From positions 1 to 62,517 of the forward strand of contig MEQB01000028.1 of NCBI GenBank assembly GCA_001770015.1: a stretch of 62,517 bases of DNA, written 5' to 3'. Below, one piece after another: positions 15,701 through 34,054 of the stretch. The notes below the pieces were generated by a model that saw only the letters and a program-made list of their open reading frames with translations, was not told the origin of the DNA and searched no databases. A program made the position numbers and the translations under genes. This DNA comes from Bdellovibrionales bacterium RIFOXYC1_FULL_37_79 (GTDB lineage: Bacteria > Bdellovibrionota > Bacteriovoracia > Bacteriovoracales > Bacteriovoracaceae). Every line of letters starts with the position of its first letter. Position 1 is the first letter of the stretch.

Positions 15701-17302
15701 TTAGCGGATATCGATTTTAAGCACCGGCCCGCTTGCCCGTTGCTTTATAACCCGCAGAAATTTTCGATTATCAATGATCGCACTTTTTTCCAGAATATGA
15801 AGTTGAATAAGATTCTGATCGTCATAAACCATTACCGGATGGACCACCAGATTGTAACAAGTTCTAGACACTTCTTTAGCGGTTTGAGTTAGCTTATACT
15901 GGTAAGGCTTAAATCGCTCAGGGATAATGGCGTTCCTGATGGCCCAAGGGGTATGAAACTTTAACTCGTAATAATTGGTCACACCGTCAGCATCCGGGTC
16001 CAATAATCGTCCGGATACCTTGGGGTCCGCTAAAATTGAAATGGCCCCCTTACTTCGCAAGGCCAAATAATCCGTTATCCAATCGTCATTGGTGTCAAAT
16101 TTAAAAATATCACTCCCGATCAACGCCTTTTCTTCGCAGTTATTAAGCAGGTCACCATCCGCATCAGTATATTTATCGGGGTCACCAAAAGTCCAGTCAT
16201 CCTTGATATAAGCAATGCAACTGTGAAAGGGGTTGGCACCGGATGAATCGCATTGAGGATGTGCACAGGGCATACCCGTAACAATATATTCCACCCCGTC
16301 AGACACTCCATTTAAATCGCTGTCAGCATGATCGGGATTAGAGCCCAGGGAAAATTCCAGCGCATCGGAGATACCATCACCATCATAATCAAATCTCAGT
16401 AATTCATCTTCCCATACGGTGCTGCTATTGATAACAAACACCTCCTTCAAGGCGTGTTTAACATACCTTTCAGGTAGGGTAAATTTGGTGTAATCTACGG
16501 CCTGTCCATCGGCAAAAGTATGGGCCTCCCCGTTTCCTCGAGCGGCCATATCCTCCAAGATACGCACGGCAGTCGCATCGACCGTGGTATTGTAATAATA
16601 TCCAGTTGAAAATTTAATCGACTCAATCCATTTATCAAAATCATTATCCGTGGTGGTTTTCAAGTTAGAGATGGAATCAATCTTGGGTAGCAAATTATTT
16701 TGGATCTGTTCCTCGGTAAGCGCATTACCAAATTCGTCGGTGGGCATTCCGTCACTTAGAAAAAAGATAACGTAATGAGAAGACACCACCTGGCCTAACG
16801 CCTCTTTGGATCTATTGACATCATTTACGATTAGTGACCTGATCCGGTCCAGGGTATGGCCATAATTGGTCCAGCCGTCATCGTTGGAAATGGCCGGTGC
16901 GGGAGGGTTGGTCAGGTTCCTTTGATTACGGGCCGTACTGTCAAACGTATTACGAGTGACAAAATCAGAAACCAGTGACGACTCGGTGGAAAAATTAATA
17001 AGTGAATAAAAAACCGCATCATCGCTGGAACCGGTATTTACAAACTGGATCAAATTATCATATCGCCTGCTACCGGTGGGATCAGTGCCCGGATTACTGC
17101 GATTGCTTCCTGATTTATCGATGACATAAATGAATTTTAAAAAGGACTTCGACAGTTCCGGATTAATGGTACAAAAATCCGCTTCCACCGTGATCTCCTT
17201 CAAATTGATTTCCGATCCCCGGGAAAGCGGCTTGAGTTTATCCCGGCAACTGTACATCAAGATAAAAAGAAGAATGGTTAAGATGTTAAACAATTTCTTC
17301 AT
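15701..17302 (-). CDS. vWA-domain lipoprotein with thrombospondin-3-like repeats
   Basis: A 533-residue predicted lipoprotein (signal ending near Cys19). The vWA domain starts at about residue 56 and has a complete MIDAS opening, DKSGS (Asp62, Ser64, Ser66), plus FFLSDGMPTDE. Thus divalent metal-dependent ligand binding is expected. From about residue 305 follow Asp-rich segments such as DYDGDGISD, DADGDLLNN and DPDADGVTN, the TSP3/EF-type calcium-binding pattern. It is a paralogue of the 567-residue gene at the head of the operon and is the last of four genes with 17-31 bp gaps. Myxococcus CglB, a vWA surface lipoprotein, is the gliding adhesin; similar use is inferred from the divergent Agl/Glt-like cluster. 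Confidence 0.85.
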   Translation of the reverse strand: MKKLFNILTILLFILMYSCRDKLKPLSRGSEINLKEITVEADFCTINPELSKSFLKFIYVIDKSGSNRSNPGTDPTGSRRYDNLIQFVNTGSSDDAVFYSLINFSTESSLVSDFVTRNTFDSTARNQRNLTNPPAPAISNDDGWTNYGHTLDRIRSLIVNDVNRSKEALGQVVSSHYVIFFLSDGMPTDEFGNALTEEQIQNNLLPKIDSISNLKTTTDNDFDKWIESIKFSTGYYYNTTVDATAVRILEDMAARGNGEAHTFADGQAVDYTKFTLPERYVKHALKEVFVINSSTVWEDELLRFDYDGDGISDALEFSLGSNPDHADSDLNGVSDGVEYIVTGMPCAHPQCDSSGANPFHSCIAYIKDDWTFGDPDKYTDADGDLLNNCEEKALIGSDIFKFDTNDDWITDYLALRSKGAISILADPKVSGRLLDPDADGVTNYYELKFHTPWAIRNAIIPERFKPYQYKLTQTAKEVSRTCYNLVVHPVMVYDDQNLIQLHILEKSAIIDNRKFLRVIKQRASGPVLKIDIR

Positions 17303-17319
17303 GTCGCTTACGTCCTTAT

Positions 17320-18195
17320 TTAATAATCATCAAAATTATATTCCAAAGTTGCATGGCTTAAGACCGAAGGATCAATCTGAAGATTGATAATCTTCAACGT
17401 GGTATTATTCAAATTGGTTTTTTGTTTTTCTATAAAATAAAGTCTGATCAAATTAAAATTACTCGACGCCACGATAGAAACATTACTAAGCTGGTATGAA
17501 TAACAAACCTGGGGTAGCGTGCTAGTTTGGAAAGTATCATATTTCACTTCCAGCGCTTTAATGATTCCATTACTGTTTGATTCATCCACCGGAGTATTGG
17601 CCTTGACTTCATTAAAGTTGTTAACCCCGTCACCATCTGTATCCAGCGAAGCATCGATAGCATCCAGAGGGTCCAGACCAAACCTGACTTCCAGATAATC
17701 CGGTATCCCATCACCATCGGTATCAAAATTAACCAGGCTGGTTTTCAAAAGGGTTTCCTCACAATCGGTCAGCCCATCATGATCAGAATCTGCCGTATGA
17801 TCATCGCACTTGCTTTGCAAATGGACTTGCTCCTGGGCAGAAATTCCTGCCAGAAAAATCATCAGGTCAGAGTAACCATCATCGTTGGAATCCCCGTCAT
17901 CCAGGGCAATATTCAAGGCCATGCTTTCATCACGATAATTGGGAATACCGTCCCGGTCAAAGTCAATGTAAGCACCGCCATCTTCCACCTTCATGGACAT
18001 ATTGATGGCAAAAAAACCACTGGCTTCCATGCTAGCATTCAAACAGTAATTGTTCATTTTTATAGTTACGGTTTTTTGATTCGCCTTCAACCCCTCTTGC
18101 ACCAGCGGAAGCAAGGGCGATTTTTGCTCCTGACATGACATGATCATCATCAAATTGATTATTAAAACCATCCCAAAATAACGTGTGCTATACAT
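17320..18195 (-). CDS. Lipoprotein with thrombospondin-3-like calcium repeats
   Basis: A 291-residue predicted lipoprotein (hydrophobic start, MIMSC with Cys21). It lacks a vWA domain but shares the Asp-rich repeat block with its neighbours: DFDRDGIPNY, DSDHDGLTDC, DTDGDGIPDY and DTDGDGVNN between about residues 75 and 200. These look like Ca-binding TSP3 loops. It resembles the C-terminal half of the flanking vWA proteins, including a Cys-containing CYSYQL / CYNLVV end domain, so it may be a truncated family member that pairs with them. Confidence 0.78.
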   Translation of the reverse strand: MYSTRYFGMVLIINLMMIMSCQEQKSPLLPLVQEGLKANQKTVTIKMNNYCLNASMEASGFFAINMSMKVEDGGAYIDFDRDGIPNYRDESMALNIALDDGDSNDDGYSDLMIFLAGISAQEQVHLQSKCDDHTADSDHDGLTDCEETLLKTSLVNFDTDGDGIPDYLEVRFGLDPLDAIDASLDTDGDGVNNFNEVKANTPVDESNSNGIIKALEVKYDTFQTSTLPQVCYSYQLSNVSIVASSNFNLIRLYFIEKQKTNLNNTTLKIINLQIDPSVLSHATLEYNFDDY

Positions 18196-18226
18196 CTTAT
18201 TTCAACCTTTCACCTTTAAAAACAGT

Positions 18227-19810
18227 TTATTCCAATTGTGGGGGAAGTCCACCACCGCCTCCACCGCCAACCGGGCATGGAGGAACACTATTGATCAAGC
18301 AATGAAATTCACCTTTCTTAAGTTTGGCAAAATACTTGGCATCGGAGGTTTTTAAAGCATTACAGCTATAAGAACCATAAACCACCACGCCCCAACTTCC
18401 ACCAGCAACACCACACACTCCAAAACCATTCATCGGCTGGAAGGCCAGTTGGTATTGGCACTCATCATCGACAATTTGTCCATTACCATTACTGTCGTAC
18501 ATGGAATAGATTCTTTGTTTTTTACCGACAGCATCCGGTTCCTCGTCAGTAAAATATTGCACTTTCTCAAACACGGCATTTTGAGCAGTGGCGGAATTAA
18601 AGGCTACCACCATACCTATATTGTCAGCTAAAACATTGGCATCAATATTACTAAAGCGAACTTCCAGTCCATGGGCCTTTTTGCCGGCAATCCCGTGGTT
18701 ATATTTATTCACCCCTTTTACTGACAGGGTTGCTTTCTGGGTTGAATTCAAACCAGCGGTAGGATTACTAAAATGCATGGTGCACGTCATATACTGGGGA
18801 GACCCGGGAGTTGGAGCCACCTGCTGTGACACCATCACCTGCTTGGTAGGTTCAACCAATGCCGCATCCTCGATCTCACCTTGGATAAACAGATAACTGC
18901 CAATTAAATTGGTACCGCAGTTGCTGGCCGCAGGAGCAGGAACGTTAATAATTCCATCTTCCCACGGTATATTGTTTGGTTGGCAATTGGTCTGGCCAAA
19001 ATCCACATTTTTAATCACTACCCGTTTCTCAATCTGACAAGCCTTGTCCTTGATCTTGATGCTGACATCTTGTAGTCCCCGATAAACTACATACTCCTTG
19101 ATGATATTACCTGGAACGGTGATCCAATTGGTGTCAAACATTCCATCACCATTAAAGTCAAATATGTATGAGTATCCTCCTGATGCCAGGCTGGGGGAAT
19201 CAATCGCCAGACCGGTAACATTAAAATTGAAGAAATTAAAAATACTATCAGGAATTATCTGACTGCCGTGGTTGATGATCGATTGACCAAAACTTTCATC
19301 CCCTATAAGCGAATATTTCTGGGCATCAGAACAACTGACATAAAAGACAAAATTCTTGCTCGTAACCTTAGAGTTACTATCACTTACTTTGACCAGCACC
19401 TCTAATCTGCCCGCAGCTTGCATGGCTATGTTAAAAAAACCGCTGGTACGTTTTTCAATCACTCCACTAGGATGGGTAATGGTCACATCGTATTGAAGCG
19501 AGGATGGAAGATCTTTGTCATCGGCGGTTTGAGACATGTTAAAATTAATAACATCCCCGACCAACAAGCCGACCGTCTCTTCCCTGCTAAATACATTATT
19601 TTCAAACGAAGCTAATTCCTGCCCACCTTTTAAAACCTGCATATCCAACCTGGGAGGTTGGTTGTCATCGGCGGCAATCCAGGTCGTTTTCGTCATATTA
19701 TCAACGAAGCCCTGATTTTTGACGGCCGTATTACCTCTTTTGGCCTGATCATTACAAGCCGATACCAAAAACATGGAAAGCACAGTTAGAAGCAGTGATA
19801 AATTTTTCAT
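18227..19810 (-). CDS. Large lipoprotein with PKD/Ig-like regions
   Basis: A 527-residue predicted lipoprotein with a good lipobox LVSAC (Cys19). The mature part is beta-rich, with two stretches resembling PKD/Ig-like sandwich domains (for example YIFDFNGDGMFDTNW at about residues 218-232). Cys-rich segments follow, ending in a Pro/Gly-rich tail (CPVGGGGGGGLPP). No catalytic motif was seen. It sits 20 bp downstream of the first vWA gene and 31 bp upstream of the TSP3 lipoprotein, so it belongs to the same operon and may be a structural partner on the outer membrane. Confidence 0.72.
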   Translation of the reverse strand: MKNLSLLLTVLSMFLVSACNDQAKRGNTAVKNQGFVDNMTKTTWIAADDNQPPRLDMQVLKGGQELASFENNVFSREETVGLLVGDVINFNMSQTADDKDLPSSLQYDVTITHPSGVIEKRTSGFFNIAMQAAGRLEVLVKVSDSNSKVTSKNFVFYVSCSDAQKYSLIGDESFGQSIINHGSQIIPDSIFNFFNFNVTGLAIDSPSLASGGYSYIFDFNGDGMFDTNWITVPGNIIKEYVVYRGLQDVSIKIKDKACQIEKRVVIKNVDFGQTNCQPNNIPWEDGIINVPAPAASNCGTNLIGSYLFIQGEIEDAALVEPTKQVMVSQQVAPTPGSPQYMTCTMHFSNPTAGLNSTQKATLSVKGVNKYNHGIAGKKAHGLEVRFSNIDANVLADNIGMVVAFNSATAQNAVFEKVQYFTDEEPDAVGKKQRIYSMYDSNGNGQIVDDECQYQLAFQPMNGFGVCGVAGGSWGVVVYGSYSCNALKTSDAKYFAKLKKGEFHCLINSVPPCPVGGGGGGGLPPQLE

Positions 19811-19830
19811 AAGGACCCACCTTGCTTATT

Positions 19831-21534
19831 CTAATTTCCAATCAATTCATCATCATTAAAAATTGCATCGACTCCGTTGGCTACAGCTTTCTCCGACGTC
19901 CTTAAGTACAACCGCTCGCTAAGTAGAGTTTTTTCTTTGATATAAACTTTTATAATGGTCTGTTTATTAATCGTATTGACTTCTTTAAAATCCCGCACCT
20001 GCAATCGGTAACAACTTCGCCCATTATGTTTTCCAAGCGAAGTTAATTCATAGGTCTGGGAAACCAGGTTAAACAACTTGTCGTTATTAAAGCTGATCGG
20101 CAAATCATGTTTGATTTCATAATAATTGTCACGGGAATCGGCATCCCGGTTATCGTGAGCATCTTGCGGATCAGTTGGTTCCAGTCCCAGATTAAATCGA
20201 AGGGCCAGATCATCCGGCAAATCATCATGATTCGAATCAAACAACTCTTTACGGGAACCCAGCAACTTTTCCTCACAATCAGAAAGTCCATCCCGATCCA
20301 AATCAGCATTTTTCTCTGCGTTGGTGCAGGCATAATTCATGGCAAGGGACGGATTACATGCTGGATGCAGACAAGGAGAACCGTTTAATTTATATTCCAC
20401 CAGATCCCCGACTTTGTTACCATCACTATCCGGGTTGAATAAATTAGATCCGGAAGTTGCCTCCAGGATATCGCTCATGCCATCACCGTCGGTATCCGGA
20501 ATTAAATATTCACCGTTCCAAAGACTACTTTTATTAATTACAATTATTTCATCCAGTAAGCGTTCAACGTTTCTTTGGGGTATTCTAAACGAACTGAAAT
20601 CGATAGGCTGACTGCCGGCAAATTCATGGGCCTGGCCGCCTCCGCTATCTTCGGCAATACTTCTTAAATAATTTTTAGCGGTGGCATCGGCATCTGTGTC
20701 AGAATAATAATACCCTGTATGAACTTGGATACTTTCCACCCAGGCGCTGTTGTTGGCGGTACCATCGGTGGAGGACTGGGATAACTCGATAATATCATCC
20801 ACCACGTTCCTGATGCTTGTGAGGGTCTGCATTTGAGGCAAGCCGTTGGCATCAAAACCCACCACCGGAGCTCCATCAGATATAAAGAAAACCACATAAT
20901 GGGAACTTATAATTTGATTGGGGTTGGCGTTTTTTTCCGCCTCACTATCCAAATTGATCATATTTTTCACGGTGGTAAATGCATTGGCATAATTTGTGCC
21001 ACCAGAATCACTTGGACAACCGGCCGGATGTTCGCTGACAGGAGGATAGGCATTGGTGTCAGCGGATCTTACCGGGGCCTGGCAACCATTACGATATTTT
21101 TGATTGATAATCAAATCAATAAAGCTTTCCTCATCACTGCTAAAATTGCGGACGATACTAGCAGAGCTGGCAAAATTCACCAAGGCGTAAGAGATACTAT
21201 CATCATCGGAACTTCCCGGGGTATAGGTCTTTTGAATACTACCGATAAAACTGATGAGAGGGTCATACCTTCGACTTCCACTGATATCACTGCCAGGAAG
21301 TGTTGGTGGAATATTGCCGAGATTACTGCGCTCTTGATTACTTCCTGACTTATCCAAAACGAAAAGAAACTTAAGCTTGGTCTTTAAGACTTGAGCATCC
21401 ATCGTACAGAAATTAACTTGAATATTTTGCACCCGATTGGCCTCCTTAACCGAAAGACGATCAAGCTTCTTAAGTGAATCCTCACATGATAAACAAAAAA
21501 ACATAATAATCAGGACACTTAATAATTGGCGCAT
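19831..21534 (-). CDS. vWA-domain lipoprotein with thrombospondin-3-like repeats (operon head)
   Basis: A 567-residue paralogue of the 533-residue protein. It has a lipoprotein-type signal ending CLSC (Cys17) and a vWA domain with MIDAS DKSGSN in FLFVLDKSGSN, then FFISDGAP. Asp-rich calcium-type repeats follow (DTDGDGMSD, DSDGNKVGD, DLDRDGLSDC, DSNHDDLPDD). AAGGAG four bases before the ATG gives a strong start. As head gene it faces the AglR/AglS-type cluster across a 316-bp divergent promoter region. The pair of vWA paralogues suggests two adhesins or a heteromer. CglB analogy is functional inference; direct homology cannot be judged here. Confidence 0.85.
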   Translation of the reverse strand: MRQLLSVLIIMFFCLSCEDSLKKLDRLSVKEANRVQNIQVNFCTMDAQVLKTKLKFLFVLDKSGSNQERSNLGNIPPTLPGSDISGSRRYDPLISFIGSIQKTYTPGSSDDDSISYALVNFASSASIVRNFSSDEESFIDLIINQKYRNGCQAPVRSADTNAYPPVSEHPAGCPSDSGGTNYANAFTTVKNMINLDSEAEKNANPNQIISSHYVVFFISDGAPVVGFDANGLPQMQTLTSIRNVVDDIIELSQSSTDGTANNSAWVESIQVHTGYYYSDTDADATAKNYLRSIAEDSGGGQAHEFAGSQPIDFSSFRIPQRNVERLLDEIIVINKSSLWNGEYLIPDTDGDGMSDILEATSGSNLFNPDSDGNKVGDLVEYKLNGSPCLHPACNPSLAMNYACTNAEKNADLDRDGLSDCEEKLLGSRKELFDSNHDDLPDDLALRFNLGLEPTDPQDAHDNRDADSRDNYYEIKHDLPISFNNDKLFNLVSQTYELTSLGKHNGRSCYRLQVRDFKEVNTINKQTIIKVYIKEKTLLSERLYLRTSEKAVANGVDAIFNDDELIGN

Positions 21535-21850
21535 GGTTCTCCTTAATATGAGTTTTTGAGCCGTATTGATTGATTTTACCTCCCATTGCGATGCAGCGTG
21601 TATAAATCACTCGAATATTGCTTTTGTTTAATAATTTCAACAAGTTACTATCGTTCAATAAAAAAATCAGAAACGGGTCACAGGCTTAAGAATTTGGCAG
21701 AGAATTGTGGCAAACCGGGTATAATTTAATAATATCAATAAACTAATCAATTAGCCGTTTTTAATTGAGTTTCACCTAGCAAGACTCGTCAAAACTGACT
21801 AAGATTATTAGTGTTTGTTAACGTATTGAAAGGAATTGAAAGGAGATTTG
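21535..21850. promoter_or_regulatory. Divergent control region between adhesin operon and motor cluster
   Basis: 316 bp of AT-rich DNA with no ORF. It must hold the promoters of the minus-strand lipoprotein operon and the plus-strand motor cluster. A TATAAT at 21720-21725 is preceded by TTGGCA at 21694-21699, but the 20-bp spacer is too long for an ordinary sigma-70 promoter, so no exact promoter is claimed. AAAGGAG at about 21840-21846 serves the first plus gene. Confidence 0.55.
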
Positions 21851-22315
21851 ATGTACCAGATAAAACGCAAAATCTTTCGCTACAAACTGCTGATCTATCC
21901 ACGTTTTCAAGTAACTATCCTGTTGTTTAATTTTTTTATTGTCATGGGAATCTTGTTTTTAACCAACTGGCGGATCAATGCTTATTTCAATCACATGAAA
22001 AAACTGGGTGAGGATGCCTCCTTTCCAAGTGACCATATCTATTTTCAATTTGTTTCCTTGCAAGAAGCCGGTTTGGAAAGCTCCTTGATGCAAATTGCGC
22101 TGGTGGCACTGGTTTTATCCACTTTGGGTTTTTTAATCCTATCCCATAAAATTTCAGGCCCCATGATCCGTCTTAAACGCTACTTCGCCAACATCACCCA
22201 GACCCAAAAAGTGGCCCCCATCTCCTTTAGAAATGGCGATTTCTTTTCCGACCTGCCGGCCTTGATCAACGGCGCCCTGGACTCCATTACCAATCATAAC
22301 GAGGATGACAAATGA
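21851..22315 (+). CDS. Two-TM membrane protein with HAMP-like segment
   Basis: A 154-residue protein with TM segments at about 21-42 and 75-97, a short periplasmic loop between them and then a HAMP-like stretch (KISGPMIRLKRYF). No output domain follows. It resembles the input half of a chemoreceptor or kinase and may transmit or sense strain in the envelope complex. AAAGGAG precedes ATG 21851; a TTG 15 bases earlier is less likely. It overlaps the next gene by 4 bp. Confidence 0.72.
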   Translation: MYQIKRKIFRYKLLIYPRFQVTILLFNFFIVMGILFLTNWRINAYFNHMKKLGEDASFPSDHIYFQFVSLQEAGLESSLMQIALVALVLSTLGFLILSHKISGPMIRLKRYFANITQTQKVAPISFRNGDFFSDLPALINGALDSITNHNEDDK

Positions 22316-22563
22316 TAAAAATAATTGCAGGTTTTATCTTGATCATCATAATATCTGGCGCCAATGCTCAACCTTTGGTAATCCGTCCCCGCAAAGAATC
22401 CACGGTCCTTAGCAACCGGGAGAAAATCCAGACCATCAAGGAGTTTGGAGACTGGCTGGAATCATGTAACCGCTTTGTCATAGACCAGGATGACGACCGG
22501 CAAATCAAACAGTGTAAATCCATCCAGGATTTTATGAAATTTGGGTGGAGTTATCAATTTTAA
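22312..22563 (+). CDS. Small secreted protein
   Basis: An 83-residue ORF with a signal peptide (hydrophobic residues 3-19, ending GANA) and a charged mature part with two Cys. Translation is coupled to the preceding gene through ATGA. No family was recognised. Confidence 0.62.
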   Translation: MIKIIAGFILIIIISGANAQPLVIRPRKESTVLSNREKIQTIKEFGDWLESCNRFVIDQDDDRQIKQCKSIQDFMKFGWSYQF

Positions 22564-22711
22564 GGTTGATCAAAAAAACTATTTAACCGACTAAAATATT
22601 CAATTTTAGAAGTGGCACCTTTTTCTAATTTTTATTTTTAATAAGCCGAATAAGACAAGTAGCAAGTCAAGATTGATTTGAGGTTGACTTCATTATCAAG
22701 GAGAACACAAC

Positions 22712-23362
22712 ATGATGCAGTTTATTCATTCTGGTGGCCCGTTTATGTATATCATTTTGGGCGTTTCGTTCTTCGCTGCAGCCTTGATTTGCGAGAGATT
22801 TTTTGTCCTGACTTTTTGCTATACCTTCAAATCTCATTTTTTTGAAAAAGTCATCCGCTCCTTAAAACACGAAAATGTTCGCAATACGGTCAAGCTTTGC
22901 CGCTCAACCTCCCATCCTCTGGCCGTCACCATTACGGAAGTGATCAAAAACATCGGGCAAAGTAAAGAGGTGATTGAATCAGCGGCCTATGTTAGCATTC
23001 AAAAAACCATACCGAAGATCCAAAAAAGAACCAATTATATTCAGATGATCGGTAACGTGGCCACACTGCTTGGATTGCTTGGAACTATTCAAGGACTCAT
23101 CCAATCATTTTCAAGTCTGGCGGCCCTGGATGCAGCTGCCAAAGCTACTGCGCTGGCAAGCGGTATTTCCACCGCCATGAACACCACGGCGCTAGGTTTG
23201 ATTGTGGCCATCCCTTGTATCGTTTCATTCACCATTCTTTCCAACAAGGAAAGGGCCATTTTACAAAAATATGACGAAGTGTTGTCCGAGGTCATTCATA
23301 TTGTAACCAGTGATCCAAGAATTAATGCAGGTAATGACGAAACCATTAAGAAGGCATCGTAA
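22712..23362 (+). CDS. TolQ/ExbB/MotA-type proton-channel protein (AglR-like)
   Basis: A 216-residue membrane protein with an N-terminal TM (about 10-32) and the two family TM segments at about 110-130 and 155-180. The signature region GNVATLLGLLGTIQGLI and the later MNTTALGLIVAIP match ExbB/TolQ/AglR proteins. These form the stator pentamer that uses the proton gradient. AAGGAGA precedes the start. With the two ExbD-type genes 3 bp downstream it would form the motor, as AglR-AglQ-AglS does for Myxococcus gliding. Tol and Ton systems are alternatives, but no TolA/TolB/Pal or TonB-dependent receptor gene is present. Confidence 0.9.
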   Translation: MMQFIHSGGPFMYIILGVSFFAAALICERFFVLTFCYTFKSHFFEKVIRSLKHENVRNTVKLCRSTSHPLAVTITEVIKNIGQSKEVIESAAYVSIQKTIPKIQKRTNYIQMIGNVATLLGLLGTIQGLIQSFSSLAALDAAAKATALASGISTAMNTTALGLIVAIPCIVSFTILSNKERAILQKYDEVLSEVIHIVTSDPRINAGNDETIKKAS

Positions 23363-23365
23363 CAT

Positions 23366-23875
23366 ATGAGCTTTTTTAAAAAAACTTTTCTCGATAATTC
23401 TGAGGATGAATTAGATCCGATGCTACCCTTTATGAGCTTGTTGCTGATTATTATTCCCGTATTAATTGGCAATATTGCGTTCTATCACTTTAAATCCATC
23501 GAAGTTAATATCCCGGGTATCAATCAGGATAAAAATAAACCAGAGCAGTTGAAAGAAGCCAGCAAGATGGATGAGAAAGTGATTTTGCAATTAAGGGTGG
23601 ATAGCGACAAACTCATTTTCACCCTGCTAAATGAAACCGATGGCCAGACCGTCAGTGAGGAAAATATTGCAAACAAAGAAGAGGAATTCAATAAAATTCA
23701 AACCATGATTTTAAAGCTGCAGGAGAAATATCATAAACTCGATACCACCCTGGTTTCAATTGATAAAAAAATCCGATACGAGGATGTTGTTAAAATACTT
23801 AATCATTTTACAGAAATTGCCAACCATCAGAAAAAAATGACTTTGGTGATCATGCCCCAAGGGGAGGATGTATGA
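23366..23875 (+). CDS. ExbD/TolR-like protein lacking the membrane Asp
   Basis: A 169-residue protein with one N-terminal TM (about residues 22-42) and a periplasmic domain containing a coiled-coil stretch (about 90-125), the layout of ExbD/TolR. When its LDPMLPFMSLLLIIIPV is set against ITSLMDVLTIILIF of the next gene, the Asp that carries protons falls on Pro; the only nearby Asp is before the membrane. It may therefore be a structural rather than proton-handling partner. Its end overlaps the canonical ExbD gene by 4 bp. Confidence 0.75.
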   Translation: MSFFKKTFLDNSEDELDPMLPFMSLLLIIIPVLIGNIAFYHFKSIEVNIPGINQDKNKPEQLKEASKMDEKVILQLRVDSDKLIFTLLNETDGQTVSEENIANKEEEFNKIQTMILKLQEKYHKLDTTLVSIDKKIRYEDVVKILNHFTEIANHQKKMTLVIMPQGEDV

Positions 23876-24348: not shown

Positions 24349-24352
24349 AGCA

Positions 24353-24622
24353 ATGAAAAAAAGGTTGATGTTGTTATTTATTTTTTGGGTTTTACTTTTT
24401 GGACCATTATCCTCCTATGCCAAAAAAAATCCGAAACGCTATGGGGATAAACCCCAGGGGCGGTCAATCAGCAGCATCGATGGACAAAAAAAAGCTATTG
24501 AGATCAGAGGACAAACCAGGACCCTGTCCATGGGTTTGGTGTTGAAAAATAAAAAAGAACAAATTGATTTTATTCAACCTCGCACGAATTATGATGAGGA
24601 AATAAAAGAAACGACCTATTAG
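24353..24622 (+). CDS. Small secreted protein in motor cluster
   Basis: An 89-residue protein with a signal peptide (hydrophobic residues 5-21, SYAK). The mature part is basic and short. It lies 4 bp after the ExbD gene and 16 bp before the AgmX-like gene. No family was recognised; it may be a small periplasmic factor of the machine. Confidence 0.62.
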   Translation: MKKRLMLLFIFWVLLFGPLSSYAKKNPKRYGDKPQGRSISSIDGQKKAIEIRGQTRTLSMGLVLKNKKEQIDFIQPRTNYDEEIKETTY

Positions 24623-24638
24623 GGGATTTGGATAGTTT

Positions 24639-26114
24639 ATGCAAAATCCGATATTACAAGTTAGCTATTCATACAAAAACCAGACCAGTTATCCCCCATC
24701 CATACCCTTGTCTGATATTGATGATGAATTGACGGTTCCGGTGCGCACCACCTCGTTTAGAATCACCAAGACCAAGGAACAAAAGCAGATCTTATTTTTC
24801 ATTGATGATTTTGGCAAAAATTCCCAAATATTATCCCTGCATCAACCGGTAATCTTTCAACCCGATGAGGATCATAAATACCGTTTTCAACTGACCAACG
24901 ATTTTATAACTTCCGACACTAAAAAATTTTCAACCTTTATCAAAGTATCATTGATCCTTCATTTAACCGTGGCAGTTATTTTTTATCTAGTCGAATTTTT
25001 CACCCCTGCCCCTTTGGTTAAAACCGCTGTCACCGTTGACTTTGAAAGAATCAAACAACTGATGGAAAAAGTTAAGCAAAATAAAAAAATAGAACCTTTG
25101 CCAGTGAAAGAAGTCGTCCAAGTCGCGCCACCACCACCGGTTAAAACACCTGTACCAGAGAAAAAAATCGTCCAAGCTAAACCCAAAAAACCGGCTCCTA
25201 AAACCAATGTTTCCACCGAAAAAAAGATTGCCACCCCATCCCCCAAGCCCCCCACCGGACCCGCTAAAAAATTAGTAGCGGTCAAGGGCCCCCCCAAAAC
25301 CGGCGGTGAACGCATCACCAAGGAATATACCCCTGGCGGTGGTGGTGGACGCAAAGTGAAAAGTTCTCAGGCCAGAACTGACGGAGCAGGTGCCGCCAAG
25401 GCCACTTATGATGCCAAAGTAAAAAGTGCCTTGTCCAGTTCGCTGGGCTTTTTATCCGACGGTCCCTCAAAATTTTCGGTCGATGCCCCCAGCATCGGCT
25501 CGCCCTCCACCAGATACGCTGCAGGCGGAAGTGGTGGCAAGGCAGGTGCGGGCAACAATTCAAAGCAGAAGAATTACCTCAATAAATTAGTCGCAAACTC
25601 CGGATCAGGTGGCACGGGTCCCATTGAAACCACCGGAGCCAGAAGCATCGCCAGCGGCAAAGTGATCTCAGACGGTGACATCAGAGGAAGCGAAGATGGC
25701 AAATCCTTAAATAGCGTTCAGGGTAAAGTCGTTTTATCCCGGCTCTATGACTATCAAGCCGATGGCCAGGTGGGGGGTGCTCTGGGTAATGATCACTCCA
25801 TGAAAGTATCTGGCAAAGGAACCATGGCTGACTCCGACATTCACAAAACCTTGGCAGATAAACTCCATAAACTTCAACATTGTTACGAAAAAGCACTTTT
25901 ATTCAATGCCAGCTTGATTGGAAATTTATGGGCCAAATGGGTGATCGACGAAAATGGACGGGTCAGTACCGCCAGAATCACCAAATCAGAACTGAATGAA
26001 CAAAAACTGCATAATTGTTTTATCAGTGAATTAAAAATGATTTCTTTTCCAAAACCGAGAGGTGGAGTGGTGGAAATCGAATATCCATTTAATTTCAAAA
26101 GTTCCTCCTTGTAA
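24639..26114 (+). CDS. AgmX/TonB-like trans-periplasmic protein
   Basis: A 491-residue protein with a cytoplasmic N-terminal region of about 100 residues, one TM (about 104-124) and a long periplasmic Pro/Lys-rich stretch (PPPPVKTPVPEKK, about 165-215). A Gly/Ser-rich flexible segment and a C-terminal domain ending in HCYEKALLF...GNLWAKWVIDENGRV...LHNCF...FPKPRGG follow. This end matches the AgmX/PglI-type TonB-like C-terminal domain found in gliding-complex proteins (GltG/GltJ). Its design fits transfer of force from the TolQ/ExbD motor across the periplasm. Two Cys in the C-terminal domain probably form a disulfide. Confidence 0.85.
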   Translation: MQNPILQVSYSYKNQTSYPPSIPLSDIDDELTVPVRTTSFRITKTKEQKQILFFIDDFGKNSQILSLHQPVIFQPDEDHKYRFQLTNDFITSDTKKFSTFIKVSLILHLTVAVIFYLVEFFTPAPLVKTAVTVDFERIKQLMEKVKQNKKIEPLPVKEVVQVAPPPPVKTPVPEKKIVQAKPKKPAPKTNVSTEKKIATPSPKPPTGPAKKLVAVKGPPKTGGERITKEYTPGGGGGRKVKSSQARTDGAGAAKATYDAKVKSALSSSLGFLSDGPSKFSVDAPSIGSPSTRYAAGGSGGKAGAGNNSKQKNYLNKLVANSGSGGTGPIETTGARSIASGKVISDGDIRGSEDGKSLNSVQGKVVLSRLYDYQADGQVGGALGNDHSMKVSGKGTMADSDIHKTLADKLHKLQHCYEKALLFNASLIGNLWAKWVIDENGRVSTARITKSELNEQKLHNCFISELKMISFPKPRGGVVEIEYPFNFKSSSL

Positions 26115-26190
26115 TAGCAAATGCTTGACATGCCCCCCGGCGCCCACTAACCTATTAACAATAACAACCCTATTTTTTAATCATTCACCA

Positions 26191-26835
26191 ATGGCATTTA
26201 AAATTATTATTATTTTATCTCTAATAACTTTTCATTCATGGAATGTTATCAATGTCTGTCATGGGGAAAGTAATGTGGACGAGCGGGGCACTTTGGACGG
26301 GGTGTATGTCAAGGCCATTGAAACCTATCCCAACCCCAAAACCCAAGAATTCAATTTTGGAGTTGGACTTTATCCCTATAACGCTTATTACAGCGGTTTC
26401 GGACTGGGGGGATCTTTTACCTACTATTTTAACAAAACGTGGGCATGGGATATTGTCAACGGCATGAGTTTTTTTTCTTTTGACAAGGATTTGATCTCCG
26501 TCTTGGCGGAAGACTTCGGCGTAGAACCAGAACAGATTGAACGCATTAAATTTCTGGTGGGCTCCAATCTCAAATATGTGCACTCATACGGCAAACTGAT
26601 CTTTCTAAAAAAATTCATCCGTTACTACCGGAGCAGTTTTATTTTTGGGGTGGGACTGGCTTCCACCAACGAACGCAGCTATTTTACCGGCAACTTTGGA
26701 TTTGATATCAATTTTTTTGTCAACGATTCATTTTCTGTTAAATTCGAAGCTTGTGACAGCATGGCCTTGAATGGTTCCAGTATTGCGTCCCCCAATTATA
26801 TTGTGGTTAAAATTGTTACAGGAATCAGTTATTAA
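26191..26835 (+). CDS. Outer-membrane beta-barrel protein (OMP_b-brl, motor cluster)
   Basis: A 214-residue protein with a signal peptide and alternating beta strands (FGVGLYPYNAYYSGFGLGGSFTYYF). These resemble the small outer-membrane barrel family (TIGR04565-like) found in Myxococcales and Bdellovibrio, often beside gliding genes. I start it at ATG 26191 because upstream in-frame sequence overlaps the previous gene and gives no signal peptide; no strong ribosome-binding site is seen. It is followed after 13 bp by a TPR gene. Confidence 0.76.
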   Translation: MAFKIIIILSLITFHSWNVINVCHGESNVDERGTLDGVYVKAIETYPNPKTQEFNFGVGLYPYNAYYSGFGLGGSFTYYFNKTWAWDIVNGMSFFSFDKDLISVLAEDFGVEPEQIERIKFLVGSNLKYVHSYGKLIFLKKFIRYYRSSFIFGVGLASTNERSYFTGNFGFDINFFVNDSFSVKFEACDSMALNGSSIASPNYIVVKIVTGISY

Positions 26836-26848
26836 TTAAATTGTTAAT

Positions 26849-28183
26849 ATGAAAAAAAAAATTCTGGTACTCACATTAATCATTTATAGCACTTTCCCCT
26901 GGGCAGGTGTCAAATGGGAAGGCACGCTACCCAAAATTGCCCAGGATCACAAAACCTGGGAAATATTATTAAACGAACTCCTGGAAAAAGAAATGTATTA
27001 TGGGGCACTGGTCACCGCCTACCGGGGATTACTCTACTACGACAACCTGGCCACCAAACAAAAAGCCTATCAAACCATCGTGGCCTTGATCGACCTGGGG
27101 TATCCAGAAAATGTGCTTAACATGTTTGTCACCGGCGATATTGAACCCACTGACAATACTGACTTTATCAGCAGCTATAATTTATACAAGGCCATCGCCA
27201 ACGAAGCCAAAGGCATGAAAAAATGGGCCGATGACTTTTTTGCTAACATTGATAAGGATAATTTTTACAAATATCTTTTCTACCAAGCAGTGCAAGCTTA
27301 TGCGCTCAACGATTATCCCAAGGCCATCACACTGCTGGAGAAAATACTTAAATTACCCCTAGAAGCAAAACATCTACCCTTTATTAAAAAAGCCGCCAGA
27401 ACTTTGGCCAGAATTTATTTTAAACAGGAAAACTATCTCAAATCCCTGGATATTTATGAAACATTTCTAACCAGGCTCAATCCCGTCACCCCTTCGGACT
27501 GGCTGGAGATGGGATGGAATCTCTACTATTTAAAAAGGTATCAAGAAAGCCTTGGGATTTTATACAACTTGGAATCCCAGGTGGTCACCCCTCCTCATAA
27601 TCTTGAAAATTATATTATCCGGGCGCTGGTTTATCTGGATTTATGTGCCACTGATAATGTGGAAAAGCTCATTACCAAATTTCAAAAAACCTATGATAGT
27701 GCCATTCAAGGAATCATCAATGGAAAGCCTCTGCGCAATTATAAGGATTTATTGCTGATTTATAGCAATCAAAATAAAAACTTCTATGATACTCAAAATA
27801 CCATCAATAATCTGATAACCGAATTTAGCACTAAACTCAAAAAACTCTCCAGGGACAGCCAACCACTGGCCTCATTTATTTATAAGAGTGAATATATGAT
27901 GCTTTCTAAAAAAATTAATTTTTATTTGGAAAATGTGTACAATGCTTCTGCCACCCAGTTAATCATGACTGCCGAATCACTTAAATTTTTAAAGTTTTCC
28001 GTCATGCGGGAAAAATTCAACCCGGATACAGTTTTTAACAACATTATTGCAAAGGATTTCAAAAATTCCTTTGAAGATATCGGAGATAAGGGATTCACCC
28101 TGATTTGGGAGCAAAAAGGCGATTATTGGCGTGATGAAAGGAACAAATATTTTGGAGATATTTCAAACCAATGTGTAAAATAA
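26849..28183 (+). CDS. Secreted TPR-repeat protein
   Basis: A 444-residue protein with an N-terminal signal (about residues 3-19) and TPR-like helical repeats at least between about 30 and 260 (for example YPKAITLLEKILKLP and YLKSLDIYETFLTRL). TPR proteins of this kind (GltE/AglT-like) serve as periplasmic or outer-membrane scaffolds in Glt complexes. It overlaps the next TPR gene by 13 bp. It has no enzymatic motif. Confidence 0.78.
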   Translation: MKKKILVLTLIIYSTFPWAGVKWEGTLPKIAQDHKTWEILLNELLEKEMYYGALVTAYRGLLYYDNLATKQKAYQTIVALIDLGYPENVLNMFVTGDIEPTDNTDFISSYNLYKAIANEAKGMKKWADDFFANIDKDNFYKYLFYQAVQAYALNDYPKAITLLEKILKLPLEAKHLPFIKKAARTLARIYFKQENYLKSLDIYETFLTRLNPVTPSDWLEMGWNLYYLKRYQESLGILYNLESQVVTPPHNLENYIIRALVYLDLCATDNVEKLITKFQKTYDSAIQGIINGKPLRNYKDLLLIYSNQNKNFYDTQNTINNLITEFSTKLKKLSRDSQPLASFIYKSEYMMLSKKINFYLENVYNASATQLIMTAESLKFLKFSVMREKFNPDTVFNNIIAKDFKNSFEDIGDKGFTLIWEQKGDYWRDERNKYFGDISNQCVK

Positions 28184-31100
28184 ATATTTTCCTATTTTTA
28201 TTACTTTATGCGGTTTGCTCCCTAGCATCCGACGATAGTTTGAACTCTGAGGAATTTAGAAAAAATCTTTCTGAAATGTATAATCGCGCCAACAAGACCA
28301 TCAAACTGGTCAGGCAGCAAATAACCGAGAATCAGCATGCCCCCTTCCTGGCTGACCTTTACCTGCAACTGGGAGAATTACTGGCCCAGAAGGCCAATAT
28401 TGTTTATTACATAAAAATGGAATCCAATGATCAAAGCAGTGAAACCATCACCACCTCCCTTAATAACTTTAAAGAAGTAGTGAGCAATCAAAAAGAAGCC
28501 ATTGCCATTTTTAATAGACTACTAGATGAGTTTCCCCATTTTGATAAAAAAGGCAAGGTTTTATATTTGCTGGCCACCTCGTATAAATCCATCGATGAGA
28601 TCCCCGCTTTTATTTCCACCACCAAAAAACTCCTGGATGAATATGCCAAGACCAAAGAGGCTGCCCGGGCCCAACTGCTACTTGGACAGTATTTTTTTGA
28701 AAAACAAATGTACCAAGAGGCGGAAAAAAACCTGGCTCCGGTTTTAAAATCTGAATTTGTACATGAAAAAAATCTGGCAAGATATCATACGGGACTCATT
28801 CACACCATCTTTGAAAGACATAAACAGGCGTTGGATATCTTTGAAAAAATTATCACCGACGAGGAATTGAAAGACAGTCAGGCTTCTTTTGAAATCTCCC
28901 TCAAGGCCAAATCGGTAAAATCCAATTTAAAAAGAGAAGCACTGATTGACTCCATTAAACCCTTTACCAGCTACTACCAAAAAGATGCCGATCCGGTGGG
29001 CTACTATTCCAAGATCGCCCCCACCGAAATTCTGTTCCAGGAGACGATTGAAAAACTGGCCTACCGATACATTTATTTAAAACAATTTCAATTTGCCATA
29101 AAATTGTTGCGTACGTTAAGCGAAAGAACGGTGAACGTGCAGCAGGTGATCAATATTTATCAAGAGGTGTTATTAATGATTCCGGTCAAAGATCGCATTG
29201 ATCTTCCGGTTGAGGAAATTCAATTTTTACTGGAAAGATATAATTACTGGATCAATTATTACAAAGTACCACCGCAATTCACCAAACAGGCCTATGTTTT
29301 TTTTGAAAAACAAGTCCGTGATCTGGGAACCAGGTCACACGATTTTTCCAAGCAAATGTTTCACTCCCTAAAACCCACCAAAACGGGTGCCAACAAAAAT
29401 CTCCAGGAAAGAATGCAATATTATGCGCAAAAATCAATTCATTATTATCATTTATACCTGGCGTATTTTAAAGGCTCGGGAAATGCCGTGAAAATCGCCA
29501 TGAATTTAGCGGATGTTTATTTTCAACAGGGAGATTACGTCAGCAGTGGAGATTTTTATCTAAGAACTTATGCCGACGAATTTGGTAAAACCACCAAACA
29601 ACAAAAAATTGAATTGATCAAGAATTCGCTTTTTTGCTTACAAAAGGAGAAAGATTATTCTTTCTACGAGCTGCTACGAGGAAAAGGGCTGTTGATAGAG
29701 GTCCTCACCATCTATATTAATTCCGACAATAAACGCAAATCCGATCCCAAGTTAAACTTCATCCTGGCCAAAAGCCGGTATGAACAGGGATTTTATGATC
29801 TGGCCATTGAAGAGCTTTATACCTTTATTAAAAAATTCAAAAGCAGCCCACATGCCATGGATGCTGCCAACTTGATCCTGGATTACTTTAACACCAAGAA
29901 TGATTTTCCCCAGCTGGTACAGGCCTGCGAACGTTTACTCACTTTAAAATTAAATAACCGTCCCTTTAATCAAAAGGTGGCCGGCATAAAAAAACAGGCA
30001 CAAATGAACCAATTACAATCCCAAGTGGAAGCTTTTGATGATTATGATTCATTTTCCCAAGGGAAAACCTATCTCAAGGCTGCCTTATCCAGTGGTGATG
30101 TTAAATTGATGAGCCTGGCATTACAAAATGCGCTGGCACAAAGTAAAAAGGAAAAAGATATCGAAACCTTTTTTAAAACCGCCACCGTGCTAGCGAAGAA
30201 CGAAAAAACTCCCTCCAAACGTTTTAATATTTTAGGGTCCATGGCCCAAGAAAATGTCCGGATCACCAGATATTATGCTGCCATGGAGATCTATCAAACG
30301 CTTGCCTCCAACCAGCAAAATCAGGAAGCTAATCGAAGCAGTGCCTATACCGATTCCCTGAATATTGCAACCGCCTTGCGGGATTGGGAAAAAATACATG
30401 CCTTATCTGAAAGTCCATATTGGCAAAAAGTACCTGCCACCACCAAGGATCGGTTAAGAAATCAACTGATTGATATTTTAGAGTCCCCCATTTCGCTTTC
30501 CGATGATATGCAAAACATGCTCTCCCGCGTGGGCCTTACTGATGAAATACTACTGGCCATGTATAAGGCTTCCAATCGTTTAAATAAAAGTCATGTCTCC
30601 ACAATGCAAGAAGAGGTCGGTCGTAAATGCAATCGGCAAAAAGGATTACCCGTTTGTCTTTGGAGAAAAGTGGAGCAACTGGATAAGGACATGGAGGTCT
30701 TCGAGGAAAAATTACAAAAATCCAAACTGGATTTAAAAGCTGTCGAGCTAAATGCCACCCACTTTCAAAAACTTCTAAAAGAATTCACCCAAGCAAGTAA
30801 TAGCTCTGATCCTCATTTGGAAATCCTGATTTCTCTAAGGAGTGCCCATCTTTATAATTTACTAAGCAAATTCCTCACCCGGGTTGCTGTGGCCAACCCA
30901 CCCCTTAAAGATGTATTGGCCAGCAAGTCTTTGGATAGCTCGAAAACCGCCACCCAGTATCTAAACAGATGTAAAAAAATCATTGCGGTCCAAAACATTT
31001 TAACTCCGGCCAATAAATATTGTTTAAAAGGGCAAAATCCTTCCCTGGAAAGTGCGCTGAACTACAATAATGTTAATGACTATCCCGAGTTTGAAAAAAT

Positions 31101-31413
31101 TAATGAGGAAAATGATTATCTAAGCGAACAAAAAAACTTATTTGCTGCCAGCAAAGGTTCGGATGCCTTGTTAAATATCGCCACCAAATACTACTCCGAT
31201 GGAAAAATCAATTACGCCCTGGCTGCCGCAGAATCGGGAGCCTCCATGGGAGGAAAATCCGTACCGCTTTTCAATGCCATCATCGGTTGCAGCGTAGCAC
31301 ACCTGGGACATCATAATGAGGCTAAATATTATTTAAAAAACGCCAGTGACTATAACGGTTTGAAAAATAAATGTTTGAGTAAACTCAAATCAATGGAAAA
31401 AGATATTTTATGA
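28171..31413 (+). CDS. Large TPR-repeat protein (GltD-like scaffold)
   Basis: A 1080-residue protein with a signal peptide (about residues 3-19) and many degenerate TPR-like helix pairs along its length, for example FPHFDKKGKVLYLLATSY, AQLLLGQYFFEKQMYQEAEKNL and FNFILAKSRYEQGFYDLAIEEL-type segments. Cys are rare until the C-terminal third. The size and repeats fit a long periplasmic scaffold, comparable in role to the TPR proteins of the Myxococcus Glt machinery. It overlaps its neighbours by 13 bp and 4 bp, so four genes from 26849 to 32063 are translationally linked or nearly so. Confidence 0.78.
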   Translation: MCKINIFLFLLLYAVCSLASDDSLNSEEFRKNLSEMYNRANKTIKLVRQQITENQHAPFLADLYLQLGELLAQKANIVYYIKMESNDQSSETITTSLNNFKEVVSNQKEAIAIFNRLLDEFPHFDKKGKVLYLLATSYKSIDEIPAFISTTKKLLDEYAKTKEAARAQLLLGQYFFEKQMYQEAEKNLAPVLKSEFVHEKNLARYHTGLIHTIFERHKQALDIFEKIITDEELKDSQASFEISLKAKSVKSNLKREALIDSIKPFTSYYQKDADPVGYYSKIAPTEILFQETIEKLAYRYIYLKQFQFAIKLLRTLSERTVNVQQVINIYQEVLLMIPVKDRIDLPVEEIQFLLERYNYWINYYKVPPQFTKQAYVFFEKQVRDLGTRSHDFSKQMFHSLKPTKTGANKNLQERMQYYAQKSIHYYHLYLAYFKGSGNAVKIAMNLADVYFQQGDYVSSGDFYLRTYADEFGKTTKQQKIELIKNSLFCLQKEKDYSFYELLRGKGLLIEVLTIYINSDNKRKSDPKLNFILAKSRYEQGFYDLAIEELYTFIKKFKSSPHAMDAANLILDYFNTKNDFPQLVQACERLLTLKLNNRPFNQKVAGIKKQAQMNQLQSQVEAFDDYDSFSQGKTYLKAALSSGDVKLMSLALQNALAQSKKEKDIETFFKTATVLAKNEKTPSKRFNILGSMAQENVRITRYYAAMEIYQTLASNQQNQEANRSSAYTDSLNIATALRDWEKIHALSESPYWQKVPATTKDRLRNQLIDILESPISLSDDMQNMLSRVGLTDEILLAMYKASNRLNKSHVSTMQEEVGRKCNRQKGLPVCLWRKVEQLDKDMEVFEEKLQKSKLDLKAVELNATHFQKLLKEFTQASNSSDPHLEILISLRSAHLYNLLSKFLTRVAVANPPLKDVLASKSLDSSKTATQYLNRCKKIIAVQNILTPANKYCLKGQNPSLESALNYNNVNDYPEFEKINEENDYLSEQKNLFAASKGSDALLNIATKYYSDGKINYALAAAESGASMGGKSVPLFNAIIGCSVAHLGHHNEAKYYLKNASDYNGLKNKCLSKLKSMEKDIL

Positions 31414-32063
31414 GACGCCGATTAATTGTGCTTTTATTTTGGTTTTATTCGGGTTTATGCCAAGCAGTTTTCCTGGAGGAGTTTCCCAATTTAAAAGATT
31501 TTGTTTTTAATGAACCGACCAGCAGTACTTACTTTGGCCTGGGACTTAGCCCCATATCCATCATGAACAGCAAATTATATGTCGCTGCCAATCTCTTTCA
31601 AATCCACTGGATCAATGATCGTTTTGATATTGAAATTTTTTCAGCCTCTATCGGATCCACCATTAACTCGGAGGATTATTCCTCATCCAAACACTTCACT
31701 TTCCGCACCATTCCCAAATATCGGATTTTTAGTTTTATAAGTATTGGTCCACTTCTCGGATTTGAATTTGTCAGATTTTCAAATATCACCGCCAGATTAT
31801 ACAAAGACAGATATGTCACCCCTTACGATGTGTTTTCCTCCAATGGCCTGATCTACGGACTGGGAATCAGTGAAACCATTGATCAGAAACATAATCGGAA
31901 AATTAAAATTTCTCAAAACATCTACAAACAAACCTATTCCACCACCAACACCAACAATGGCTGGACTTACTTATATCAAAATCCAGAACTGGCAGTAGAA
32001 GCCAATAAAGACAAGATTGCCGCAGGCATCGTCATCATGCTGGAAATTTCTTATTTATTGTAA
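31410..32063 (+). CDS. Second outer-membrane beta-barrel protein of the cluster
   Basis: A 217-residue protein with a signal peptide (about 4-20) and beta-strand pattern (TYFGLGLSPISIMNSKLYVAANLF, final ISYLL), similar in layout to the barrel encoded at 26191. It probably ends the motor operon: a minus-strand kinase gene finishes 2 bp later. Two barrels in one cluster may form the outer-membrane part of the machine. Confidence 0.74.
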   Translation: MRRRLIVLLFWFYSGLCQAVFLEEFPNLKDFVFNEPTSSTYFGLGLSPISIMNSKLYVAANLFQIHWINDRFDIEIFSASIGSTINSEDYSSSKHFTFRTIPKYRIFSFISIGPLLGFEFVRFSNITARLYKDRYVTPYDVFSSNGLIYGLGISETIDQKHNRKIKISQNIYKQTYSTTNTNNGWTYLYQNPELAVEANKDKIAAGIVIMLEISYLL

Positions 32064-32065
32064 GC

Positions 32066-34054
32066 TCACTTGATCCTAAACGAAGCCACACTTTCTTTAT
32101 GGATGATAAATTTTAGGGGCTGATCCTGATAAAACGCATTGTATTCACCCACCGGCAGGGTGATCTTTTTAAAGGGCACCGGAACAAAATAATAGTTTTG
32201 ATCTTTGGGCATTTCAATTTTTAAGAACGAATTGGGAGGAAAATTCTCTCCCACACACTGCAAATATCCTTTGGGTTGCTTTAAAAAATTTGGTACGGTA
32301 AGGTTCACCTTTTCATTATTATTATTGATTAATATTTTTTTGATATAGGGAGCAAACCCTTTTTTGATCACTTGCAGATAAAATTCCTGGTGAACCGGCA
32401 CGGGGAGCCCCTGGACAGAATATTCCACTATTTTTTCATTGAGCTGAAGGGTGACCTCGGTGGCCTTAATATTGTTTAAAATAACATGGCCTTGATACCC
32501 CCTGATTTCACCATAAAGGATTTTCACGGATGGTATCTGCATCAACATGACCACCATACCTGCCACCATCACCATGACCACCATAATCTTGCTCATGGAA
32601 AAATGATTATGCCCTGGCACATGTTTGGAGGGATGCACTCTTAAATTCGTATTCTGTGGATGAGCATGATCATCAATGAAAATAATATTCGAGGCTTGAT
32701 CCACAGATAATCTTTTAGGAAAGGCTTCGGCGGCTCTTTTGGGAGGTTTCATTTCTGACAGGTTATTAAATTTATCTCGAAAAGTGCGTTTGATCTTTTT
32801 GGCCACCTGGGTGGTGATGGTGGCCAAATCTAATTTCAATGATGGTTTAGCAGCATCTTTACCCACCGGCCGGCAAGTCACCATTGAATCAGAATTAAAG
32901 ACTATATCGCTATGATGTATACTACTTGCAGAAGCTTTAACCTCTTCCTTTGGCGGTTTTGAATTTTTTCCTTTATCCGCAAAGCCCTTTTCTTTTTCTG
33001 GATATAATTTAGTACTGGTGGAGGTTTTTTCGTTTTGAATTTCCTCCAGATAAGGACTAAAATCCATCTTCCCCACTTGTAATAGTTTTTTTTCCTCCTG
33101 TTCTTTTTCCGCCGAGAAAAGCTTGATGGCATATTTCCGCAGATCAGTTGGATTAAAACCTGGAAATCTGCGATGTAAAAAATTAGTCAGTTCCCTGTTG
33201 ACGGCATCCATATCCGTATAGCGGTCATTGGGATCAGTTTTTAGCATTTTTAAAACAATCTGATCCAGATCATCAGGAATATTGGGATTGATGGCCGAAG
33301 GTACCGGGATTTTTCCTTCCACAATTTTTTCTAAAATAGAAAATTTATTTTGATCTTCATCCATCTCAAACAATTTTCTATTGCAAATAAGCTCCCATAG
33401 GACAATCCCGGTGGAATACATGTCATAGCGATGATCCAGCGGAATATCCATGAGATATTCCGGGGCAATATAACTCAATTTTCCCTTGATGGCGGCGGGA
33501 CTTGAACTTTCCGTATTAAATTTACTTTTGACAATGCCAAAATCAATCAGTTTGACCGTTCCCGAATAGGTGATCATGATATTTTCCGGTGAAACATCCC
33601 GATGAATAATTTTGGCCGGTTGACCTGTTAACTTATTGGTGAAATTATGCGCATAATAGAGAGCCTGACAGATCGTTGAAATGATATAAACCGATATTTC
33701 CAGGGGCAATACCAGATTTCTGTTTTGCAGTTTTTTTAGAAAATCGCTTAGGTTTTTACCCTCGACGTATTCAATGACCAGATACAATTGTCCCTCAGTC
33801 CTTCCATAATCCAATACCTGGGTTATCCCTGGATGATTAAAATCAATCGTAACCTTGATTTCATCCAGAAACATATTTTCATACATCTCGTTGCCAAAAA
33901 ATTCCTGCTTGATCCGCTTGATGATGACCACCTTATTGGCATCATTACCAAGCATCAATGACAAATTGATTTTACCCATCCCACCTTGATTTAGGTTATC
34001 TAAAATCAGATAGCGTCCTATGCGGGATATTTTAGAATCATCAATTTCATTCAT
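32066..34054 (-). CDS. Transmembrane Ser/Thr protein kinase (PknB-like)
   Basis: A 662-residue eukaryote-type kinase. The glycine loop is LNQGGMGKIN (21-30), the ATP-binding Lys46, helix-C Glu65, catalytic HRDVSPEN (151-158) and DFG (171-173) are all intact, with APE in YIAPEYL, so it should be active. After the kinase (to about 310) come a charged linker, one TM at about 490-512 and an extracytoplasmic beta-rich domain with PEGA-like character. The gene ends 2 bp from the motor operon in convergent orientation. Control of the motor by phosphorylation is inference from proximity; the outer domain could sense envelope state. Confidence 0.92.
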   Translation of the reverse strand: MNEIDDSKISRIGRYLILDNLNQGGMGKINLSLMLGNDANKVVIIKRIKQEFFGNEMYENMFLDEIKVTIDFNHPGITQVLDYGRTEGQLYLVIEYVEGKNLSDFLKKLQNRNLVLPLEISVYIISTICQALYYAHNFTNKLTGQPAKIIHRDVSPENIMITYSGTVKLIDFGIVKSKFNTESSSPAAIKGKLSYIAPEYLMDIPLDHRYDMYSTGIVLWELICNRKLFEMDEDQNKFSILEKIVEGKIPVPSAINPNIPDDLDQIVLKMLKTDPNDRYTDMDAVNRELTNFLHRRFPGFNPTDLRKYAIKLFSAEKEQEEKKLLQVGKMDFSPYLEEIQNEKTSTSTKLYPEKEKGFADKGKNSKPPKEEVKASASSIHHSDIVFNSDSMVTCRPVGKDAAKPSLKLDLATITTQVAKKIKRTFRDKFNNLSEMKPPKRAAEAFPKRLSVDQASNIIFIDDHAHPQNTNLRVHPSKHVPGHNHFSMSKIMVVMVMVAGMVVMLMQIPSVKILYGEIRGYQGHVILNNIKATEVTLQLNEKIVEYSVQGLPVPVHQEFYLQVIKKGFAPYIKKILINNNNEKVNLTVPNFLKQPKGYLQCVGENFPPNSFLKIEMPKDQNYYFVPVPFKKITLPVGEYNAFYQDQPLKFIIHKESVASFRIK

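Follow-up and report, generated by a model that had tools for sequence, protein, structure and literature searches.

What does a cluster do in which a TolQ/ExbB-type motor and an envelope scaffold are encoded divergently from a set of lipoproteins with von Willebrand factor A (vWA) domains? The window, a 62,517-nucleotide stretch of contig C28 of the Bdellovibrionota genome G000, contains such a cluster. Its closest named relative is the Bdellovibrionales MAG RIFOXYA1_FULL_36_14, whose tpr2 protein is 93% identical. About 12 conserved genes, shared with other uncultured relatives of the predatory bacterium Bdellovibrio, form a block that combines a putatively proton-driven motor of the Myxococcus gliding type, an envelope scaffold and integrin-like surface lipoproteins. 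The block plausibly encodes a machine that would grip or pull on surfaces or other cells. A sequence-only reading had listed motor proteins, a force carrier, TPR scaffolds, two barrels and two MIDAS-containing lipoproteins in a divergent layout, and open reading frames, profile searches and structure models confirm that all of these parts are present.

Motor, force carrier and scaffold

The plus-strand run (21851-32063) encodes two small ORFs, exbB, exbD1, exbD2, a GltG/AgmX-like gene, omp1, tpr1, tpr2 and omp2, several of which overlap. The terminators found in a promoter/terminator scan of the window are at chance level and carry little information. The cluster was originally drawn from 15701 to 34054, of which the part from 15701 to 32063 stands. 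The remainder is a minus-strand Ser/Thr kinase gene (32066-34054; PF00069), which is a doubtful member and was rejected as part of the cluster: a kinase neighbor recurs only in locus L035, from the same genus, and in L037, and was not found at the other loci tested.

The motor consists of a TolQ/ExbB/AglR-type proton-channel subunit (exbB, 22712-23362) and two ExbD/TolR-type proteins (exbD1, 23366-23875; exbD2, 23872-24348). ExbB matches the MotA/ExbB family (PF01618) at 8e-27 and contains the threonine-bearing motifs GLLGTIQG and MNTTALG, and the two ExbD proteins match PF02472 at 1.8e-7 and 1.2e-15; all three matches lie above the Pfam cut-offs. ExbD2 retains the transmembrane aspartate (SLMDVLT) in the window and in the other motors checked. 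In ExbD1, the equivalent position is not aspartate in the window or in L037, L032, L042, L053, L068 and L070. Because ExbD1 lacks the membrane aspartate while ExbD2 has it, the sequences suggest an asymmetric ExbD pair with a single aspartate.

The GltG/AgmX-like force carrier (24639-26114) has one transmembrane segment, a TonB-like SxxxH motif, a proline-rich linker and a C-terminal AgmX/PglI domain, which scores 81.6 bits against NF033768 (cut-off 40). Its match to the GltG equivalog reaches 67.7 bits, below the cut-off of 650. The SxxxH motif is absent from some orthologs and was dropped as a general feature of the carrier. Given this variability and the missing ExbD1 aspartate, coupling may differ from that of AglRQS-GltG. 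A stand-alone AgmX/PglI C-terminal domain of 141 residues with a lipoprotein-like leader is encoded without a motor in L004 (7320-7745, minus strand), and similar short copies are present in other genomes.

Two barrels and two TPR proteins complete the run. Omp1 (26191-26835), whose start codon was placed by comparison with L035, scores 56.0 bits against the OMP_myx_plus model TIGR04565, slightly under the cut-off of 60. Omp2 (31410-32063) has no family match in profile searches; its AF2 model (pLDDT 88) is an 8-strand outer-membrane barrel that Foldseek matches to OmpA, OmpX, Ail and OprF, and its profile is related to that of omp1 (hhalign probability 85). Tpr1 (26849-28183) and tpr2 (28171-31413) show weak to moderate TPR matches. 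Tpr1, a periplasmic protein with orthologs of 39-46% identity, is a distant GltC relative that matches the GltC model NF033756 at 1.8e-5, far under its cut-off. Tpr2 is a long periplasmic scaffold and the best phyletic marker of the system.

The two small ORFs that begin the run, located between the lipoprotein operon and the motor genes, are possible accessory genes. By hydropathy, the ORF at 21851-22315 encodes a two-transmembrane protein, whose C-terminus reads as HAMP-like from its sequence; an ortholog (41%) stands beside the vWA operon of L026. The ORF at 22312-22563 encodes a small secreted protein with a TIKEFGDWLESC motif, which also occurs in an ORF next to the two-transmembrane gene of L026. 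Relatives of both adjoin a vWA operon in this one other genome.

The vWA/TSP3 lipoproteins

The minus strand encodes four lipoproteins from 21534 down to 15701, in the order vwa1, gp3, tsp3 and vwa2, with 17-31 bases between neighbors. All four begin with a signal peptide followed by a cysteine. In vwa1 (19831-21534), a vWA domain with a MIDAS site is combined with TSP3 repeats, and the C-terminus forms a beta domain. Vwa2 (15701-17302), 39% identical to vwa1, has a vWA domain with its own MIDAS (DKSGS), TSP3/DxDxDG repeats and a C-terminal domain. Tsp3 (17320-18195) lacks the vWA domain and consists of TSP3 repeats, with PF18884 above its cut-off, and the shared C-terminal region. Gp3 (18227-19810) has a conserved cysteine and a glycine-rich C-terminus, matches no Pfam or NCBIfam family and has relatives in L026, L027, L037, L040, L046, L047 and L049. 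The lipoproteins are presumed to be exposed at the surface. A lipoprotein-type serpin gene (14114-15436, minus strand; PF00079, 1.8e-118) adjoins the operon.

Is the vWA assignment secure? The sequence match reaches 19.3 bits, under the Pfam cut-off of 27, so an assignment from Pfam alone was dropped and the question was settled by structure; the vWA profile matched no sequence in the PDB. The AF2 model of vwa1 (pLDDT 86) shows a vWA fold over residues 49-323 (Foldseek E 1e-7), with ANTXR2 and LapA as top matches and TRAP and MIC2 also listed. VIA-align matches fall mostly within the same residues, the first row giving a Z of about 18 and an rmsd of 2.3 over 177 residues. The MIDAS residues (D-x-S-x-S, Thr and Asp-Gly) are kept in nearly all of the 18 aligned family members. 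Structure prediction, which the sequence-only reading had called for, therefore bears out the vWA fold. The proposed four-gene lipoprotein operon with calcium-type repeats also holds: the repeat pattern matches 4 times in vwa1, 5 in tsp3 and 6 in vwa2, well above the shuffle averages of 0.4-0.7.

Co-occurrence and linkage across Bdellovibrionota

Do the motor and the lipoproteins belong together? Tpr2 orthologs are present in 23 of 369 Bdellovibrionota genomes; full-length orthologs score more than 1000 bits against the tpr2 profile, well above the next tier, the canonical long TPR proteins, which reach at most 217 bits. The named tpr2-carrying loci are L036-L051, and all named carriers are MAGs. 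The vWA family occurs in 22 of the 23 tpr2-bearing genomes versus 55 of the 346 others (Fisher p 1.4e-15, relatedness ignored). For strong vWA matches, the counts are 20 of 23 and 9 of 346 (Fisher p 3e-23, again with relatedness ignored). The lone tpr2 genome without a vWA gene is fragmentary, with a completeness of 85%, and the contig concerned breaks off immediately upstream of the force-carrier gene. Among the genome of the window and its close relatives (n = 59), tpr2 is found in 6 and vwa1 in 5 of the same 6. By a hand count within the window's own family, tpr2 is found in six genera, all of which have vWA, and no genus has a strong vWA match alone. Thus, conservation of the motor genes in relatives without the vWA operon, which had been named beforehand as the observation that would count against the association, did not arise.

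The co-occurrence is patchy over seven families, and the genes are clustered in six. Twelve of the 23 genomes, representing six families, carry the lipoprotein genes on one contig with tpr2 or the motor and no more than approximately 15 kb away. Gene orders vary: divergent in the window, convergent in L026, L027, L037 and L045, and collinear elsewhere, including same-strand runs such as tsp3-vwa-gp3-exbB-exbD-exbD-agmX-omp1-tpr1-tpr2-omp2 in L047 and tpr2-omp2-vwa-tsp3-vwa-gp3 in L049. Further linked cases are found in G366, G343, G356, G313 and G295. In the clade of G032, G106, G107 and G108, all parts are present but the vWA genes are located elsewhere in the genome, and this loss of linkage is a point against the coupling. 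The earlier grouping of motor, scaffold and vWA lipoproteins is thus supported by both co-occurrence and repeated linkage in varied orders, and the three very probably constitute one functional system.

The nine genomes with strong vWA matches and no tpr2 ortholog encode instead the long TPR protein typical of canonical Glt-like clusters, which is more distant. Moreover, distant Glt clusters (L052, L053, L056, L062, L068, L069, L070 and L071) have vWA/TSP3 lipoproteins within approximately 10 kb, and the Glt-vWA/TSP3 association is therefore broader than the window's ortholog group. Such lipoproteins accompany Glt-type clusters widely in Bdellovibrionota.

A candidate adhesion machine and its alternatives

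The cluster most resembles the Agl-Glt/CglB system of Myxococcus xanthus (summarized in PMC13104615), with which it shares ExbB with two ExbD proteins, an AgmX/PglI-type carrier, TPR proteins, outer-membrane barrels, an MglA-like GTPase encoded in the genome and, as a likely endpoint, a vWA lipoprotein with a MIDAS site, as in CglB. It differs in that its adhesins form a four-gene operon with TSP3 repeats and in that ExbD1 lacks the aspartate. In profile searches of the cluster, the equivalog cut-offs of GltG, GltC and CglD are not reached and no FHA domain is recognized; CglB is not named among the family-model matches, nor are GltF, GltH, GltI and GltK in the general search. Luciano et al. 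(2011) described four expanded Glt-like core complexes without GltH, I, J and K in Bdellovibrio (PMC3169522). The core set is identical and likewise present in several copies per genome, but the cluster represents a distinct ortholog group with a near-invariant vWA/TSP3 association. vWA proteins also operate with TolQ/TolR-like motors and TPR proteins in the force transducers of PMC12204202; there, the vWA protein is anchored in the inner membrane and replaces TolA/TonB, whereas here it is a lipoprotein beside a separate AgmX-type carrier. We rejected this identity for the vWA proteins, given that vwa1 lacks the TM/TPH anchor: it has no more than a signal peptide, in which Cys17 is conserved. 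We regard the cluster as a well-conserved Agl-Glt variant that carries a vWA/TSP3 lipoprotein module. In agreement with the earlier impression of novelty, no description of this arrangement was found in the open-licence literature.

From gene content, the predicted folds of vwa1 and omp2, MIDAS conservation, co-occurrence and recurrent linkage, we favor an envelope-spanning, proton-motive-force-driven adhesion machine of the Agl-Glt type that is coupled to the vWA lipoproteins. By homology, ExbB and ExbD1/ExbD2 would use proton flow. The carrier, judged by its AgmX/PglI domain, may transmit force across the periplasm, and the two TPR proteins and two barrels may relay it to, or assemble, an outer-membrane complex. 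The vWA-MIDAS/TSP3 lipoproteins would stand at the end of this chain, in the outer membrane or at the cell surface, where their binding of a ligand under load would depend on metal, and the output would be traction on surfaces or other cells. The direction of force, the surface exposure of the lipoproteins and the presence of a ligand are presumed in this scheme. Force-coupled surface adhesion is the probable function, and gliding in particular is a possible but less likely one.

Traction or gliding is plausible, with cohesion to prey or kin only slightly less so. In the latter case, the motor would deploy, cluster or load the vWA/TSP3 lipoproteins to hold the predator to prey or kin without gliding. 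We give this serious rival less than even chances. In its favor, the same genome encodes an MglA-like GTPase and three other ExbB-ExbD-ExbD-AgmX clusters that could serve gliding, two of which have more of the Glt-like genes, and the nearest named relative of the lipoproteins is the cell-cell cohesion protein MtsD (NF047639). MtsD is the only named family that matches them well (E to 2.5e-21, for tsp3 over region 383-588), and within the genome MtsD-like sequence occurs only in vwa1, tsp3 and vwa2. However, the match is confined to the TSP3 repeats and C-terminal region (approximately residues 360-588 of 651) and yields 55.6-75.5 bits versus 800 for the full-length equivalog. The MIDAS lipoprotein Bd0875 of B. 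bacteriovorus, which acts at the predator-prey junction and is proposed to be a force-bearing adhesin (PMC11003981), is likewise a lipobox vWA-MIDAS protein. Compared by description rather than by sequence, Bd0875 is smaller, has nothing but a small domain (residues 1-56 and 326-378) on either side of its vWA domain, and the text of that paper mentions no TSP3 part or motor linkage. A more specific version is tentative and rather unlikely: the cluster would encode a force-generating machine dedicated to adhesion and separate from gliding. Its Glt-type motor, with an asymmetric ExbD pair and one proton-binding aspartate, would put load on integrin-like catch-bond lipoproteins that hold or pull prey or neighboring cells, and it would be used across Bdellovibrionota beside separate gliding motors.

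The motor and scaffold could instead move or build a surface layer or export lipoproteins, with the vWA proteins as cargo, as Agl-Nfs moves the spore-coat polymer in M. xanthus with a related apparatus (PMC3858216). Four lipoproteins, two of them without vWA, resemble a multi-part coat or cargo set, but polysaccharide or spore genes were not recognized among the linked genes, and we consider this reading unlikely. Least probable by far is Tol-Pal-like envelope maintenance with the lipoproteins as incidental neighbors. ExbB scores 76.7 bits against the TolQ model, but its cut-off is 221 and a far better TolQ candidate (206.9 bits) is encoded elsewhere in the genome, and a Tol-Pal identity was rejected on these scores; moreover, no TolB or Pal match was found in the cluster, and the vWA co-occurrence is strong.

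For the favored adhesion machine, the candidate genes are now defined, the MIDAS site is known to be conserved and tpr2 serves as a clear marker; the adhesin question is therefore testable by point mutation. Elsewhere in the window, a lysine/ornithine aminomutase-type catabolic operon (2065-8025, plus strand) includes a MutS-like gene, an aminotransferase and a beta-keto acid cleavage enzyme, and the minus strand at 57860-62452 encodes a probably secreted protein of 1530 residues, in which LVIVD repeats match 24 times and which also has a beta-propeller and an Ig-like domain.
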